From assembly GCA_030688025.1 (NCBI GenBank), contig JAUYJL010000024.1:1-56630 (forward strand): 56,630 bases of DNA. The letters are read 5' to 3'. Below are positions 23,556-45,703 of this stretch, in pieces. Positions within the stretch are counted from its first letter, which is position 1. Each line of letters begins with the position of its first letter. Source of the stretch: Candidatus Peregrinibacteria bacterium. Its GTDB lineage: Bacteria; Patescibacteriota; Gracilibacteria; UBA1369; LOWO2-01-FULL-3. Below the pieces are notes generated by a model that was not told the DNA's origin, did not search any database, and was given only the letters and a program-made list of their open reading frames with translations. The position numbers and the translations under genes are program-made.

Positions 23556-23597
23556 AAAGAACAACACAAATAACACTTTTAGCGCAGACACCTATCG

Positions 23598-23725
23598 CTG
23601 GATCGCTGGATCACTGGATCGCTGGATCACTGGATCGCTGGATCACTGGATCACTGGATCGCTGGATCACTGGATCACTGGATCGCTGGATCGCTGGATC
23701 ACTGGATCACTGGATCGCTGGATCA
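23598..23725. repeat. Sixteen perfect 8-bp tandem repeats, unit CTGGATCR
   Basis: The unit CTGGATC followed by G or A is repeated 16 times without any other change. The order of the variable base is G A G A G A A G A A G G A A G A. Every unit contains a GATC. The array lies 42 bp after the HNH stop codon. Frames through it give an 8-residue periodic peptide only because 8 and 3 have a 24-bp common period; no real gene is indicated. Confidence 0.95.
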
Positions 23726-23762: not shown

Positions 23763-25484
23763 CTATTTCCCCTCCTTCACTTTCTCCATCGCCTCATTAC
23801 CCTTTCTCTCCTGAAATTTCAAAAACGCATTAAACAAAATCTTGTCATTTTCAGGCATAGAATAAGACGACACAAAATACTTCAAAATCTGCATTGTGTC
23901 CTTCACAAGTCCATAATATTTATCATAATCACCACTAAGAACTCCATAATCTTTCGCTGTTTTATAATAATTTGTCTCCACGAAATTTATCAATTTTTCA
24001 GGACTAAAGAAAATTGCATAGAAAGGATCTTTTCCAATTTTCTCAAGCACTTCAGCCACATCTTTATCTTTCCCAACAATATTCTCCCCATAAACTTTAT
24101 TAAATTCAGGATAAAGAGAAACAACAAAAACATTGTCGCCGGTCAGCCCATAATAAATTTCAATTTTCATCTTTTTCACATCAAATCCGGGGATCAAATT
24201 GAATCCAGCAAACATTTCTTCAGGTATCGCATTGAAATCGACATAAAGCTTGTTTAATCCACCGCCTTTCACGACATTTACATCTTTCTTAAGAGCACCT
24301 TCCGCTCCAATCATTCCTTCAAATTCACCGATAATTGCATCTACATATAAATCAAAAGAAGCTGTAATTTTTTTCGCCGCCCCGGTATATTTTTCATCTA
24401 CATCAAAATAGAAAGAAATTGTAGGATATTTTTCTCCACTATCTCCAACAGCTAAAGCAAACGGAGATCCCAAAATTCCGATCACCTCGTCTTTCGAGAC
24501 CCCTGCAAATTCGCTCACAAAAGCCAAGAAGTCATCATAACCTTTTTGAACATCCAAAGGTTCATCGCTAGTACCCCCCTGAAGTCCCATTTTAAATCCA
24601 GCCAAAAAATTTCCAATATATTGTCCAATCTCAGGCATTTCCCAATAAAAAATTGGACTCTCTAACGGAACTTTATTAAAAAGCGAAAGTTTCTTTCCGG
24701 AATAAGGCAAATTTTTCGTCACAATATCTTTATCCTCAACCAAATTTCCAAAACCTTCAAATCCAAAACCATCTTCTTTTGCAACAATTTCAGCATACAT
24801 ATTTTTAATAACTTTCATTCTTTCTTCCGCATCTGCGATCGCCTTTTCGTCAGCCCCAAGACTACCAAGAAACTTCTTCAAACCCTCTCCGGTTTCCAAA
24901 TAAATATATCCAAGATTTCCTTTCGAATTTTTTGAAGCATTTTTAAAATTTTCATTTGAATCAAATCCGGTTCCATCTTTCAACCGACCAAGAGCTCCAT
25001 CGACTTCAGCCTGCGTATTCCCAAAAACAAAAAGACCACCATCATTGCCATACAAAAATGTTTTTGATTTCGATTTATCAAGAAAATTCTTCATTTTAGA
25101 TTTCTCATCGGTATAAAAAGCAACCGAAATTCCGCCACCCCCAAGCCCTCCATCAATTTTTGACAAATCAATCGCCACAGACGCCTTCCAATCTCCCTCT
25201 AAAATAGGCAAAAGATCTTCCTTATAATCAAGTCCGTCTTTTTTCAAATCTTCCTCGTTAAACAAATCATTTTCAAATTGTTCACCAAGCCCATAATCCG
25301 GAAGCATTCCAATAAGTTTTTTCATATTTCCGACCTGCTCTCCGTCAGAATGATCAACAGCCATCACGAACTGACTATCCTTTAGCAAAGCCGCCTCTGG
25401 CAAAACATTCCCCCCAAACGGCCAAAATTTACATCCAGAAAAAACCGCAATAGACAAAGCAGCTAAAATAAAAATTTTCTTCAT
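23763..25484 (-). CDS. Lipoprotein, DUF3352-like
   Basis: A 573-residue protein with a lipoprotein signal: IAVFSGC places the lipidated cysteine at C18. The mature part is a long mixed alpha/beta protein beginning LPEAALLKDSQFVMAVDHSD. Proteins of the DUF3352 type have this start and similar length, but the assignment is by general resemblance. No catalytic motif is visible. The charge is acidic overall. It lies upstream of nothing in particular: the next gene on this strand toward its 5' side is rpmG, 13 bp away, so the two may share a transcript started at the rpmG promoter. Confidence 0.6.
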   Translation of the reverse strand: MKKIFILAALSIAVFSGCKFWPFGGNVLPEAALLKDSQFVMAVDHSDGEQVGNMKKLIGMLPDYGLGEQFENDLFNEEDLKKDGLDYKEDLLPILEGDWKASVAIDLSKIDGGLGGGGISVAFYTDEKSKMKNFLDKSKSKTFLYGNDGGLFVFGNTQAEVDGALGRLKDGTGFDSNENFKNASKNSKGNLGYIYLETGEGLKKFLGSLGADEKAIADAEERMKVIKNMYAEIVAKEDGFGFEGFGNLVEDKDIVTKNLPYSGKKLSLFNKVPLESPIFYWEMPEIGQYIGNFLAGFKMGLQGGTSDEPLDVQKGYDDFLAFVSEFAGVSKDEVIGILGSPFALAVGDSGEKYPTISFYFDVDEKYTGAAKKITASFDLYVDAIIGEFEGMIGAEGALKKDVNVVKGGGLNKLYVDFNAIPEEMFAGFNLIPGFDVKKMKIEIYYGLTGDNVFVVSLYPEFNKVYGENIVGKDKDVAEVLEKIGKDPFYAIFFSPEKLINFVETNYYKTAKDYGVLSGDYDKYYGLVKDTMQILKYFVSSYSMPENDKILFNAFLKFQERKGNEAMEKVKEGK

Positions 25485-25497
25485 AGGACAAATACTA

Positions 25498-25680
25498 TTA
25501 GTTTTTACCCTTCTTAGTATCTTTTCTTTTGTGATCTGTATGTTTTCTGCACTTTGGACAAAATTTGCTGATTTCTTTTACGATCTCATCATTTCTTCTT
25601 TTGTCATACGCTGAGATATCATTTCCTTTCTTACATTCCGGGCAGAACCAAGTGCAATATTGACTTTTTCCCTTTGCCAT
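25498..25680 (-). CDS. rpmG: Ribosomal protein bL33
   Basis: A 60-residue zinc-ribbon protein with C13-x2-C16 and C41-x2-C44. The end, KFCPKCRKHTDHKRK, is the bL33 signature. It sits on the large ribosomal subunit near the E site. The promoter at 25720-25748 precedes it. bL33 is one of the ribosomal proteins variably present in reduced genomes, so its retention is mildly informative. Confidence 0.85.
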   Translation of the reverse strand: MAKGKSQYCTWFCPECKKGNDISAYDKRRNDEIVKEISKFCPKCRKHTDHKRKDTKKGKN

Positions 25681-25938: not shown

Positions 25939-26013
25939 GCCGTCGTAGCTCAGTGATAGAGCACCCCCTTGGTAAGGGGGAGGTCAGGAGTTTAATTCTC
26001 CCCGACGGCTCCA
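25939..26013 (+). tRNA. tRNA-Thr (GGT)
   Basis: The acceptor stem GCCGTCG (25939-25945) pairs with CGACGGC (26003-26009). The anticodon stem CCCCC/GGGGG encloses the loop TTGGTAA, anticodon GGT. The D arm (AGCTCAGT...AGAGC) is normal, and the T arm is GTCAGGAGTTTAATTCTCC-like, with TTTAATT as the loop. The CCA end is encoded (26011-26013). Confidence 0.95.
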
Positions 26014-26291: not shown

Positions 26292-26336
26292 TAAAAAAAG
26301 AACCACCCAAAATATAATTTATAGATAGTTCTTTTT
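26292..26336 (-). terminator. Intrinsic terminator of the candidate ncRNA
   Basis: On the minus strand, AAAAAGAAC-T-ATC pairs with GGT-G-GTTCTTTTT around an AT-rich loop, followed by T. It is the only strong terminator on this strand between the promoter at 26966-26994 and the VF530 gene. Confidence 0.65.
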
Positions 26337-26960
26337 CCGTACCTCGCTTGCAACCTTTCTCTGCCACATGAGATATTTTAAGATAGTCCACATAGATCAA
26401 AGTTCACTATTACGTAAACCTCAAAATATATAAATGAATTTCTACTTTCAGCGACCATAACTTGCGTTACAGCGGAAGAAAGAAAAATCGATTGCACTCC
26501 CATACAAGCCGTTAGAAGACTTACTTCTATTGTACCTATATAGCATGATCTTTTCTTGAACGATGTTGCCATGATTCTTGATCAATCACAGAATGTTTTC
26601 CCCCATAAATCTTGCGATAAATGGATCGTAGACATCCCTATGCAAACCAACCTGATCAAACTCAAATCTTTTTTCTTAATCCTTCGAGACTACCCGGAGA
26701 ATAAAAGAAAAAAGGAAATACCTCTTATGAACGTCCATTGCTCAACCTTCTTAAAGAAGGGAACAAAAGCGAGAGAAAGAAAACTTTCTCTTTAACATAA
26801 GATATTCTCATATGCCCTACCCGTGTTAGCGGGGAGGAAAGTTACAAGAAGGATAGAACGCTTTAGAAGAAGCCTTTCGACAAGTTGTAAAGACGCTCTA
26901 ACCTTCCTGCAACAAATATGAATTGCGATTATTTTTATTTTTGTTTTTTTCAAGGAACTA
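26292..26960 (-). ncRNA. Candidate large structured noncoding RNA, about 665 nt
   Basis: A near-consensus minus-strand promoter (26966-26994) and an intrinsic terminator (26292-26336) bracket 665 nt with no convincing gene. Frames of 61-79 residues exist but lack recognisable start contexts and motifs. The interval contains several clean hairpins. One is a long imperfect stem near 26850-26905 (AAGG-TAGA-CG-CTTTA with its complement). Another is AGAGAAAG/CTTTCTCT at about 26771-26791. A third is CCTTCTT/AAGAAGG at about 26746-26760. A fourth is ATTCT/AGAAT near 26573-26594. Size and layout are in the range of the large ornate bacterial RNAs (OLE, GOLLD, ROOL), but I do not recognise a member of any family. 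Confidence 0.5.
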
Positions 26961-26965
26961 TGCAC

Positions 26966-26994
26966 ATAATACATCATTTTCCGAAGAATGTCAA
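26966..26994 (-). promoter_or_regulatory. Strong promoter of the candidate ncRNA
   Basis: On the minus strand, TTGACA (26989-26994), 17-bp spacer and TATTAT (26966-26971). It is back to back with the plus-strand promoter at 27003-27031; the two -35 boxes are only 8 bp apart. Confidence 0.7.
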
Positions 26995-27002
26995 CACCTT
27001 AA

Positions 27003-27031
27003 TTGACAAATAATTAAAATCCTGCTATTCT
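27003..27031 (+). promoter_or_regulatory. Promoter of the methyltransferase gene
   Basis: TTGACA (27003-27008), 17-bp spacer and TATTCT (27026-27031), 33 bp before the ATG at 27065. Confidence 0.65.
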
Positions 27032-27780: not shown

Positions 27781-28482
27781 TTACGCTTCTGACTGCTCTT
27801 CCTCTACATCAAGACCGGTAATTTTACCCTTCCCCAAAAACTCTCTCGCACCATTTCTCTTTACATCAAGCCTCTTATTTCTACCCTCAAACACTTTAAT
27901 AATTTCACCACGCGCCATTCCACGAATTTTCATTTCCTTTTCACCAAGCCTAAATTCATCCAAATGACCTTCAATCAATTTCGCCAATTCTACCACCCCA
28001 ATATCAAGTTTCATTTTCCCAATCAACGCATTTCCCAAAGAAGTAATCGTTACAAACTTACCATTGTCATCCGCTTTATAATGAACTCCTTCTTTCATCA
28101 CCATTTTAAGACCATTCAAAACTTCCGCAGAAATTTCTCCAAGTTTTGGAACCTCTTTTCTTGAAACAGCTTTTGGATTTGCACGTCTCAATACACGACT
28201 TGCCGCTTCACGAACAACAGCCCTCAATTGAGGCTCGCTCAAAGAGTTAATTGTTGCAACATCCCCAATCTCAGCCAAAACATTATCCACAACAGGGCGT
28301 GAAAAATCAGAAGCTCTCGATTCTCCATGAAATTTCACGGGTCCTCTACTAACTCCATCACTATTTCTACCTTTCGAGACTTTAGATTCGGCCACAGCAA
28401 CTTGCCCGCCAAAATCACCACCCTCAGAAATTCCTGAAACTCGATCAGAAACAATTCCTCTTTCAGGTCCACCTTTACCCAT
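27781..28482 (-). CDS. Uncharacterised protein
   Basis: A 233-residue protein of no recognised family. Residues 1-60 are Gly/Ser/Arg-rich and probably disordered. Residues 65-110 form a helical segment (EPQLRAVVREAASRVLRR). The remainder is a basic alpha/beta region (GKFVTITSLGNALIGKMK) ending in an acidic tail. It has no signal peptide. It converges on the methyltransferase gene with a 14-bp gap. Confidence 0.55.
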   Translation of the reverse strand: MGKGGPERGIVSDRVSGISEGGDFGGQVAVAESKVSKGRNSDGVSRGPVKFHGESRASDFSRPVVDNVLAEIGDVATINSLSEPQLRAVVREAASRVLRRANPKAVSRKEVPKLGEISAEVLNGLKMVMKEGVHYKADDNGKFVTITSLGNALIGKMKLDIGVVELAKLIEGHLDEFRLGEKEMKIRGMARGEIIKVFEGRNKRLDVKRNGAREFLGKGKITGLDVEEEQSEA

Positions 28483-28963: not shown

Positions 28964-29632
28964 ATGGAAAATTTACACCAAAATGAATCGTTAAGCGCAG
29001 AAGCTAGAGCAAAAACACCAACAGCCCCAACACGAGGAATGAATCTTAAAACAAGATTAGCCGCACTTACCGCACTTGCAGGAATTTCTACATTTGCTCC
29101 AGAACCAGCACAAGCCTCAGAAGGAAAAACAACCATTGGACAAATAGGATTTAAAGCCGATCAACTTCATTTATCAGATACAACCTCACAAACTGGAGGA
29201 TATTTTTTAAGAGCAACAACTTCAGCACAAGCAACACATTTAGATCCATATACGACACAAGGAATTGCAGTCCATGGAGAACATTTTAGCGCAGGCCTAG
29301 GGGCAAAAATTCCATTAACAACAGAAGGCTTTACCAAAAGACTTGGAGGCAATTTAACGCTCGGATACCATGGCAAAAAAATAGGAGTCCACAGCGATTC
29401 AATTGTTGACGGAGAACAATGGAGAAGCGAAACTTCAGCACAATATCAATTCCCTCATCACATAGGCGTAGGCCCTGTAGCTCTAGCAGAAGGCCACTTT
29501 GGACACGAACCAAAAGTATTTAGCGGAATTTGCGCATCAGCAAAAATAAGCGAGCACATCTCAACTGAAATTTGCGCAGCAGCAACAAGAGCTTTAGACA
29601 GCCATGCTTCCATAAATTTAACGTATAGATAG
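28964..29632 (+). CDS. Uncharacterised exported beta-rich protein
   Basis: A 222-residue protein with a long, polar N-terminal extension (1-28), a hydrophobic segment (about 29-50) ending APEPAQASEG that looks like a signal peptide with an Ala-x-Ala cleavage site, then a beta-rich mature part. The mature region alternates polar and non-polar residues with frequent Gly, as in beta-barrel or autotransporter-like proteins (HIGVGPVALAEGHFG). No family is recognised. Element R2 copy 1 begins 6 bp after its stop. Confidence 0.6.
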   Translation: MENLHQNESLSAEARAKTPTAPTRGMNLKTRLAALTALAGISTFAPEPAQASEGKTTIGQIGFKADQLHLSDTTSQTGGYFLRATTSAQATHLDPYTTQGIAVHGEHFSAGLGAKIPLTTEGFTKRLGGNLTLGYHGKKIGVHSDSIVDGEQWRSETSAQYQFPHHIGVGPVALAEGHFGHEPKVFSGICASAKISEHISTEICAAATRALDSHASINLTYR

Positions 29633-42727: not shown

Positions 42728-45703
42728 CTAATTCTGAAATATCGGTGAACTCGACGCAGAAAAAATAACATAGACTGGCTCAAAATCCGTAGCCCCAAGC
42801 CCTTTCGCCAAAGTAGAATAATTAATTGGTGCAATCAAATCTCCCTCACCGCTCTCCGAATCGTAAGGCGACAAAGCATCTATTCCATTACATTCCACTC
42901 CGCCCACTCCGTAAACCGTGTCCTCCACCAACAGGGCCTTATACTGTTTTATCTGCAACATCTCCTCCAATGTAAGCGCTTTTTTACAACTCTGATCCAC
43001 AGGCATTCCCAGCTCATTTGTCTGAATAGACAATTTGAAAAGTCTTAAATAATTCAAATCATAAGCCTGAATAGCAAGCTTCTGCGCGCTCGTAAGCCCA
43101 ACCGTAGGCCACGCCTTAAATCCATCCAAAAGATATTCCTTAGGATTTTTTGGATCTTTATCCAAATCCGAACCTCCCACGGTATTATGAGAAGCAATAC
43201 TTCCCAACCACCTCAACTGCTTATTCAAAGAATCAACCATCTCGGAAAAACTACTCCACTTTGGAATACCCGTGACAGAATCAAACGCCATTCCTGTTTT
43301 GTAAGAAAAAATCGAGCAATCCGTAAACACATTCGCATTTATATTCTTCACTTCACTATTTATATAAATATTTCCTTTATTACATCCATCTGAATACGAC
43401 CTCAACGCTATAATCTGCATTTTATCCGTACTTGGAGCATTTTTATAAATATCGGAATCTATAAAAATATTTCCATTCATCACGACCACAGTCTGATTAT
43501 TTTTATACGCAGAGGAGCTTGAAAGATTTATATGAACATCTGTATTTTCATAAACAGTCACAGCGCTTCCATCAAGCTTAACATCGCTAACAGCCTTACC
43601 GGTACTACACGCACTTGTTCCTCCATTATCACCTATCGTACACGTTTTCGTATTATCTACATTCGAAGACGTATCCCTTTTCAAAGTCACTCCGGGAATT
43701 TTACTACTGATATTTTCATAAAGACCATTGCGAACAGTATTCACGATTTTATTTCCGGTTTCCTGCGTTTCGACAGAAGCGCTCGGACTAAACGATTTCG
43801 CCGCATAAAGATTCCCCTGAACAACCGCAACAGGATTCGCGATAGCACTCACAATCCTTGGCAATTTATTTGAATAATAACTAACCGCTTTCCCATCAAT
43901 AATATATTTCACTACACTATAAAGAGATGGCCCAACCGCCTGAGAACAAGGCTTAACCGCCGCCTTTTCCTCCTCACTCTCAATCGCATCATACTCCGGC
44001 AATGTCGCCGCCGCTTGAAGCTCAAAACTATAAGGCTCTGTTTGAACATTTCCCCATGTATATGCGTTACTTGCTCCTTGAACAAACTTAATATCAAACC
44101 CACCACCGACAACCTCTTGCCCATTTGCAACACAATTCTCAGCCGTCGCAGTTTGATCATAATCCATTTTAAACTCAACATTCGCAACCACATCCTTCAA
44201 TACAGGATCCTTAACTCCCCCGACTTTGAAAGAAAAAGGAATAGATCTAAATCCCGTTATTGAATCCTGATTATTGTCAGCATAAAGCGTACTCACCTCG
44301 ACCGCAGGCCTAAAGTGAAAAGAAAGTCCATCCTTCCCATTTGGAAATACAGTCGGAGTGTATCCGACAGGCAAAGAACCCGTACCATTATCTTTAAGAG
44401 GAACATCTATCTTTAAAAGTTTCAATCTGTTTGGCTCAACAGTAGGAATCTTGTCCTCAAAACCATGCATACTATTAAAGAACACTTCATTTTTAAATAC
44501 AACATTCGGCTTCATGCTCGTAGTATACGAAATATTCATATCCGTCGTCGGAGCATAAGATTTTATAGTTTTATCCAAAACATAATACCCGCTTTCGGGA
44601 GGAGTCTCGGTAAAATCACTCAAACTCACCGTAATAGGTTTATAAATAATTCCACCTTTCCCCTTATTCCATGGATCTGAAATATTATTAAGGCTCGCAC
44701 CAACATTTTGAGTACTGTCTGCCTCCTGATTTATTTTCACAGTATCACTCCATGAAAAAGTAAAAGTATCAACAGTATAAGACTGCATCGGCGTAACTCC
44801 GTCTGCCTCCTTCAAATACAAGCCAATCTCATATTCATCCACTCCGTTCGCCACTTTTATATCAGAATCCTTCCCAAACCCGACTCCGATTCCACCGACC
44901 CCATTACTTCCATCACCTCCACCTCCACCTCCACCTCCACCTCCACCTCCACCTCCACCTCCGGCCGCAGGACAGGAAACTTTATCAAGCGCCTTCTCCG
45001 GATCCAAAACCTCAATACAAACATATGGCTTTTTATCACACGGCCCGACAACATCTTTTACAATTTCTTTCCCCGGAATTTGTATAGTAACCCCGGTCAT
45101 ATCAACCCAAACTTTGGCTTCAGTCCATGCATATCCGGAAAGTTTTCCATTTGTGTCTGCAACAACCTGATAAGGAATAGCTCCACCTCCAGCAAATTGC
45201 ATATACCCAAAAGACGGATTCCACGCATTTCCGGAAAGAAGTCTTATCCCTCCATTCATCGCCCCAACCTTCACTCCATAAGTATAATCTCCACAATCTA
45301 TTCCTTGATTTTTTTTCGTTCCATCACAGAAAAAAGAGTAAAATCCAAGATTTGTATTCCACGCAAACCCTTTCACGGCATATTCATCAATAACAAGTGG
45401 ACTTGAAGTGTCAAGACACGCCGCAAGATTTCTATCCGCAGGAGCAAGCCCCGGCGCAAGTCCGACAATTGAAAGATTCGTCACTTGATTCGCATCAGAA
45501 TAAGGACTTGGATGAGAATCAAAATCAATCTGTCCAAAATTTGGATTTGAAGCTTTAGTTTTTCCAATAATTTTTCCACTACAATTCACTTCGCCTTCCG
45601 CAAAAACCGTATTTTCGGAATTCAATCCGTAAAGAAAAGGACTGGCCACAAAAACAGCTGAGATAAAAGCCAAAAACACAAAACGAGGAAATTTGAAGTT
45701 CAT
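42728..45703 (-). CDS. Large secreted surface protein with poly-glycine linker
   Basis: A 991-residue protein with a signal peptide (about 8-35). The N-terminal region (about 36-225) contains repeated motifs GFAWNTNLGFYSF, GNAWNPSFGYMQF and GYAWTEAKVW: short beta modules with a conserved Trp, seen in many CPR surface proteins. A run of about 17 Gly (about 248-264) separates them from a second beta-rich region (about 270-640). The C-terminal part (about 660-991) includes a parallel-beta-like segment, VVVMNGNIFIDSDIY and GNIYINSEVKNINAN. At least ten Cys residues are scattered through it. No catalytic motif. It is probably an adhesin or appendage subunit. It converges on the phosphohexomutase gene, 14 bp between stops. 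Confidence 0.75.
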   Translation of the reverse strand: MNFKFPRFVFLAFISAVFVASPFLYGLNSENTVFAEGEVNCSGKIIGKTKASNPNFGQIDFDSHPSPYSDANQVTNLSIVGLAPGLAPADRNLAACLDTSSPLVIDEYAVKGFAWNTNLGFYSFFCDGTKKNQGIDCGDYTYGVKVGAMNGGIRLLSGNAWNPSFGYMQFAGGGAIPYQVVADTNGKLSGYAWTEAKVWVDMTGVTIQIPGKEIVKDVVGPCDKKPYVCIEVLDPEKALDKVSCPAAGGGGGGGGGGGGGGGGDGSNGVGGIGVGFGKDSDIKVANGVDEYEIGLYLKEADGVTPMQSYTVDTFTFSWSDTVKINQEADSTQNVGASLNNISDPWNKGKGGIIYKPITVSLSDFTETPPESGYYVLDKTIKSYAPTTDMNISYTTSMKPNVVFKNEVFFNSMHGFEDKIPTVEPNRLKLLKIDVPLKDNGTGSLPVGYTPTVFPNGKDGLSFHFRPAVEVSTLYADNNQDSITGFRSIPFSFKVGGVKDPVLKDVVANVEFKMDYDQTATAENCVANGQEVVGGGFDIKFVQGASNAYTWGNVQTEPYSFELQAAATLPEYDAIESEEEKAAVKPCSQAVGPSLYSVVKYIIDGKAVSYYSNKLPRIVSAIANPVAVVQGNLYAAKSFSPSASVETQETGNKIVNTVRNGLYENISSKIPGVTLKRDTSSNVDNTKTCTIGDNGGTSACSTGKAVSDVKLDGSAVTVYENTDVHINLSSSSAYKNNQTVVVMNGNIFIDSDIYKNAPSTDKMQIIALRSYSDGCNKGNIYINSEVKNINANVFTDCSIFSYKTGMAFDSVTGIPKWSSFSEMVDSLNKQLRWLGSIASHNTVGGSDLDKDPKNPKEYLLDGFKAWPTVGLTSAQKLAIQAYDLNYLRLFKLSIQTNELGMPVDQSCKKALTLEEMLQIKQYKALLVEDTVYGVGGVECNGIDALSPYDSESGEGDLIAPINYSTLAKGLGATDFEPVYVIFSASSSPIFQN
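44914..44962. repeat. In-frame 6-bp microsatellite (CACCTC)n encoding poly-Gly
   Basis: About eight copies of CACCTC run without interruption. On the minus strand they code for the poly-glycine stretch of the 991-residue protein. Loss or gain of units would lengthen the linker by two residues without a frameshift. Confidence 0.9.

Follow-up and report, generated by a model that had tools for sequence, protein, structure and literature searches.

A large structured RNA of a probable new class in Candidatus Peregrinibacteria and Candidatus Peribacteria

The window (the whole stretch of 56,630 nt analysed here) corresponds to contig C32 in the 1.18-Mb genome of a Candidatus Peregrinibacteria bacterium. 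A preliminary description had placed a gene-free interval between two small genes and bounded it by a TTGACA-17-TATTAT promoter and a U-tailed terminator, with a second promoter diverging from it. All of these elements were recovered. The promoter reads on the minus strand from 26994 to 26966 and matches the consensus at 11 of 12 positions, and a U-tailed hairpin lies on the same strand at about 26337..26293. On one side of the interval, just downstream and on the same strand as the RNA, is a VF530-family gene (71 aa), and on the other a methyltransferase-like gene (233 aa). The features that delimit the locus are as follows.

26966..26994, minus strand: sigma-70-type promoter, TTGACA-17-TATTAT; homologues are promoter-like at the matching position
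26293..26337, minus strand: intrinsic-terminator-like hairpin with U tract; equivalents occur at the 3' ends of homologues
27003..27031, plus strand: divergent promoter, TTGACA-17-TATTCT, facing the methyltransferase-like gene (context, outside the RNA)

Elsewhere in the window, a tRNA-Thr gene (GGT) is located at 25939-26013, about 280 bp past the RNA's terminator, and a tRNA is also found near the RNA in the congener G001 (L004 1410-1481). A small zinc-ribbon ORF at 25498-25680, conserved in G001, shows a weak match to ribosomal protein L33 under the Pfam cut-off. ORFs of 573, 233 and 222 aa (23766-25484, 27784-28482 and 28964-29629) have relatives in congeners and no Pfam match. Directly after an uncharacterised 344-aa ORF, an array of about 16.5 copies of the 8-bp unit ATCACTGG (23594-23725) reads open in frame as SLDHWITGSLDRW repeats. 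A perfect hexamer array of CACCTC (8.2 copies) occupies 44914-44962.

The interval had been described as full of hairpins and devoid of a credible reading frame, and both statements hold. On the minus strand the roughly 665 nt fold at -211.4 kcal/mol (z -11.4), and the opposite strand of the same interval reaches a z of only -1.9 against shuffles. Three congeners have full-length homologues at 82-94% identity, and G054 has a divergent one; searching with the G054 copy yielded further divergent homologues. Since the structure is preserved by compensatory changes both in the full-length homologues of the genus and in the divergent ones elsewhere in the order, the interval is more than a chance assembly of hairpins. 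A protein-coding or decayed gene could be read into the ORFs of 45-64 aa in the window copy. These ORFs run into stops and frameshifts in the congeners at 82-94% identity, which excludes protein coding; each homologue carries different ORFs, none is conserved, and covariation is found throughout. A coding origin can thus practically be dismissed. The comparison with relatives, proposed as a check in the preliminary description, accordingly came out in favor of its candidate large noncoding RNA, which is supported by covarying stems, the lack of a conserved frame and the lack of an Rfam match; transcription is unverified.

Of 89 genomes of this order, 11 contain homologues according to a covariance model of the core (R1); these amount to 12 copies in 6 of 67 genera and three families. 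Members score 116-185 bits, with the window copy at 166.6 bits. Weak R1 matches in 38 other genomes of the order were obtained with laxer filters and are regarded as noise (best 17.3 bits, versus 116-185 for members). Wider samples, with 380 genomes from the phylum and 288 from the class, yielded no further members; only 7-9 candidates were scored per genome, and very distant ones may have escaped detection. Phage records yielded no copy, nor did viral contigs (searched with three patterns), and no real copy was found among plasmids. A match on a Pediococcus plasmid was rejected, as it falls in an AT-rich promoter region preceding a parA-type gene. Short blastn matches (L006, L007, L009) proved to be AT-rich starts of protein genes, neither RNA copies nor rRNA leaders, and four of ten pattern matches in genome contigs (L036, L038, L040, L043) were attributed to chance as they lack a covariance-model match. 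The organisms carrying homologues belong, where named, to Candidatus Peregrinibacteria or Candidatus Peribacteria, and the class is found so far only in this one order. One genome, G087, has two RNA copies on different contigs (L065 8400-9100 and L066 3590-4290), about 65% identical to each other; the assembly has an estimated contamination of 5%. In neither G087 copy does the sense strand fold better than the antisense strand, which equals or surpasses it.

All evidence on structure comes from the 12 sequences of these 11 genomes only. The predicted domains of the window copy are listed from the 5' to the 3' end of the RNA.

26841..26913, minus strand: P1, the first hairpin, which is long and whose basal 3' strand also serves the closing helix PX
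26813..26838, minus strand: P2 hairpin, bounds approximate, from the minimum-energy fold and the alignment
26723..26802, minus strand: P3, a closing helix enclosing two hairpins; TCTTATG/CATAAGA in the window copy, CCTGATA/TATCAGG elsewhere
26545..26715, minus strand: conserved core, supported by covariation and the match to R1
26714-26668, minus strand: core helix P4
about 26667-26650, minus strand: core helix P5
26638-26590, minus strand: core helix P6
26589-26545, minus strand: core helix P7
26360..26544, minus strand: 3' domain, a variable multi-hairpin region supported by covariation

The core has a constant length of 180-183 nt in all 12 copies and contains a conserved internal loop, CAAG/CAAG. 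Both-sided changes occur in 24 of its 57 pairs (83 cells), a value reached by none of 500 shuffles, and its pairing of 90% falls to 40-50% when partners are slid. Compensatory changes also support P1 (12 of 21 pairs; 0 of 1000 shuffles reach that) and the 3' domain (28 of 46 pairs; 0 of 1000), and the 5' domain shows the same pattern of covariation (0 of 1000). GNRA- or UUCG-type tetraloops number 46 across the set versus 0-3 in shuffled sets; one of the two hairpins inside P3 carries GCAA or UUCG as its loop in most copies. All 12 copies have a GNRA loop on P7 while other loops alternate between GCAA and UUCG, which makes P7 the best candidate for a tertiary contact. Judged from the alignment, covarying secondary structure is present in every domain and spans most of the length of the RNA.

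The preliminary description contained neither the recurrence of the RNA at unrelated loci, nor a boxA-like leader, nor a 3' strand that rivals the first hairpin. The last of these forms one side of a putative closing helix, PX.

26836..26848, minus strand: PX 5' strand, CTTGTAACTTTCC, which shares positions with the 3' strand of P1
26347..26359, minus strand: PX 3' strand, GAAAGGTTGCAAG, just before the terminator and resembling the P1 5' strand

The 5' strand of PX consists of the P1 3' strand and the following TTTCC. Across the 12 copies PX is 90% paired with 15 double-change cells, which none of 2000 shuffles reached (by column or by whole strand), and pairing drops to 29-63% when the helix is slid by 1-3 nt. 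Because P1 covaries too, P1 and PX compete for one strand and are mutually exclusive. Single-sequence energies favor P1 over the full PX in most copies, PX being dominant in G069 and a mixture being predicted for copy G087a. Much of the variation in PX and P1 reflects one deep split between the window's genus and the rest, and consequently few independent events. We consider it probable that PX forms. We infer from this competition that the RNA alternates between two states, open when P1 is full and closed when PX is full, or that molecules exchange strands with one another.

The 5' leader holds a further element shared with most homologues.

26948..26958, minus strand: boxA-like element, GTTCCTTGAAA, resembling the rRNA leader of the same genome

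Soon past the -10 box, a boxA-like element (GTTCCTTGAAA, GATCTTTGAAA or similar) is found in 11 of 12 leaders, G069 being without it; in shuffled leaders the pattern appears at 0.5-1.9% per leader. The rRNA leaders of the same genomes have AGTTCTTTAACA or AGATCTTTGAAA, the window's own genome AGTTCTTTAACA. The arrangement is like that of rRNA operon leaders (boxA, NusB/S10 antitermination), where an untranslated RNA likewise has a boxA-like element a short way past its promoter. It differs in that rRNA is absent downstream and that the GTAATAGAGAA element of the rRNA leaders is missing from the RNA leader. As the boxA pattern was picked after the leaders had been viewed, the evidence is suggestive and no proof, and we only lean towards the element being functional.

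The preliminary description had noted a size like that of OLE, GOLLD or ROOL RNAs, none of which it could recognise. The size resemblance holds, and the search it recommended, run with full Rfam 15 (including OLE, GOLLD, ROOL, raiA and HEARO), produced nothing at gathering score for the RNA, and at a permissive E-value only low-scoring hits to unrelated families. A scan of the whole window with Rfam 15 returned tRNAs only. Weak matches to GHRLOS, MESTIT1_3, rli117 and other families were far under the gathering scores and, except for GHRLOS, unshared between homologues. A divergent RNase P RNA is ruled out: RF00010 is unmatched here and the genome has its own at C9:4645-5039 (153.9 bits). The same applies to tmRNA, with RF00023 unmatched here and a full-length tmRNA elsewhere in 11 of 11 genomes. 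No description was found in the open-access literature on noncoding RNAs of Peregrinibacteria or Patescibacteria (subscription papers and bioRxiv preprints were excluded).

With OLE the window RNA shares a length of about 600 nt, an elaborate covarying structure and an unresolved function. OLE is reported mainly from extremophiles and anaerobes of the Bacillota and forms a membrane-associated RNP (PMC12054373, PMC10898510), whereas the window RNA is unmatched in Rfam, occurs in a CPR-type host and has no gene that recurs next to it. The lack of a recurring gene applies to the neighbourhoods of the copies only and does not extend genome-wide to the OLE-associated proteins OapA, OapB and OapC. 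ROOL, of which a 659-nt representative was solved as a nanocage, sits in phages or prophages near tRNA islands (PMC12286853). It is similar in size, and single tRNA genes lie near the copies in the window's genus. GOLLD is likewise a large ornate RNA of unknown function; it is linked to phages, and many of its members are longer than 800 nt (PMC12286853). A phage or prophage location as in ROOL and GOLLD was not found here in phage records or, by pattern, in viral contigs, the neighbours of the window RNA looking chromosomal, and GOLLD, too, differs in that the window RNA has no match to it in Rfam. OLE, ROOL and GOLLD all form RNA-only homo-oligomers (PMC12286853). The lack of a covariance-model match and of a phage link, together with the different hosts, means that the window RNA resembles OLE, ROOL and GOLLD in size and complexity and is a member of none. 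A precedent for its patchiness is a 520-nt lncRNA of L. salivarius, present only in some strains of this one species and borne on a megaplasmid (PMC5643018). In contrast to that megaplasmid-borne, species-specific RNA, no sequence similar to the window RNA was found among plasmids. We are highly confident that the window RNA represents a new class of large structured RNA, absent from Rfam.

Neighbour genes are common to copies only within one genus and completely different between lineages. Unrelated neighbourhoods together with an own promoter and terminator identify the RNA as free-standing, and neighbours shared only within a genus indicate that it is not cis-regulatory. The VF530 gene just downstream and on the same strand in the window might have suggested a cis-acting leader, a 3' region or an antisense regulator of an adjacent gene. 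With a terminator-like hairpin between the RNA and this gene, and with neighbours that differ completely across lineages, such a role is very improbable.

The 16S data make genus g13 the sister of the window's genus, at about 88%, and leave G054 and G077 outside this pair at about 77%. In the RNA tree g13 groups with G054 and G077, and the AU test rejects a tree in which the two sister genera are united (p 0.005). This conflict and the patchy presence suggest horizontal transfer, or old duplicates with differential loss. An empty-site comparison was sought in G029, in which no clear orthologue of the flanking helicase was found. An RNA element that is mobile or selfish, for instance one derived from an intron, and that spreads with little host function would also account for the patchy occurrence (11 of 89 genomes), the unrelated contexts, the conflict with the 16S tree and the two divergent copies in G087. 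Yet no neighbour of the copies could be recognised as a transposase, reverse transcriptase or homing endonuclease (neighbour sequences were read, most without a family search), Rfam gave no match to group I or II introns at the locus, and the RNA has its own promoter and terminator. Its location is moreover largely kept inside each genus and its structure is under strong purifying selection. An element of this kind is thus improbable.

In the scenario that we prefer, the interval is a gene standing on its own, whose product is a large structured RNA of about 600-670 nt that acts in trans. Antitermination of the rRNA type via boxA would probably aid transcription, allowing the long untranslated RNA to be finished and to fold with Nus factors. 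Once the 3' end has been made, the 3' strand could displace the base of P1 and close the molecule via PX. A compact tertiary fold is suggested by the tetraloop hairpins, among them P7 with its invariant GNRA loop. The most likely action would be that of a scaffold, either as an RNA-protein particle or as an RNA-only homo-oligomer, with the P1/PX exchange as a conformational or intermolecular switch. In the absence of data on a partner protein or an oligomer, scaffolding or oligomerisation is inferred and remains tentative, somewhat short of probable. The statement as a whole, from RNA class through antitermination and PX closure to scaffold, is one that we favor with reservation, its function being inferred and its expression untested.

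A trans-acting ribozyme or enzymatic RNP, with the P1/PX exchange as part of a catalytic or maturation cycle, would fit the core of constant length (180-183 nt), the conserved CAAG/CAAG loop, the invariant GNRA loop and the long-range closing helix PX. It would nevertheless be unlike any ribozyme in Rfam, and the patchy presence speaks against an essential housekeeping enzyme; we regard catalysis as unlikely, without discarding it. To return to the scaffold, its boldest form, a horizontally spread giant RNA of ultra-reduced CPR bacteria with antitermination of the rRNA type that becomes an RNA-only homo-oligomer or an RNP via the P1/PX exchange, is equally doubtful. In this homo-oligomer or RNP form P1 would pair within one molecule and PX within or between molecules, which is not excluded. 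Such an exchange of strands would permit a symmetric RNA-only assembly, which has not been shown.

To our knowledge, only a handful of bacterial RNA classes of such size and complexity exist, and we know of no settled function even for the best-studied large RNAs (OLE, ROOL, GOLLD). The 12 aligned members, the covariance model and the prediction of a two-state helix allow structure and assembly to be tested in vitro without culture of the host. The RNA also raises the question whether boxA antitermination of the rRNA type operates in other large noncoding RNAs. The host genomes measure about 1.1 Mb and have a pared-down gene content, and yet selection retains in them an untranslated structure of about 600 nt.
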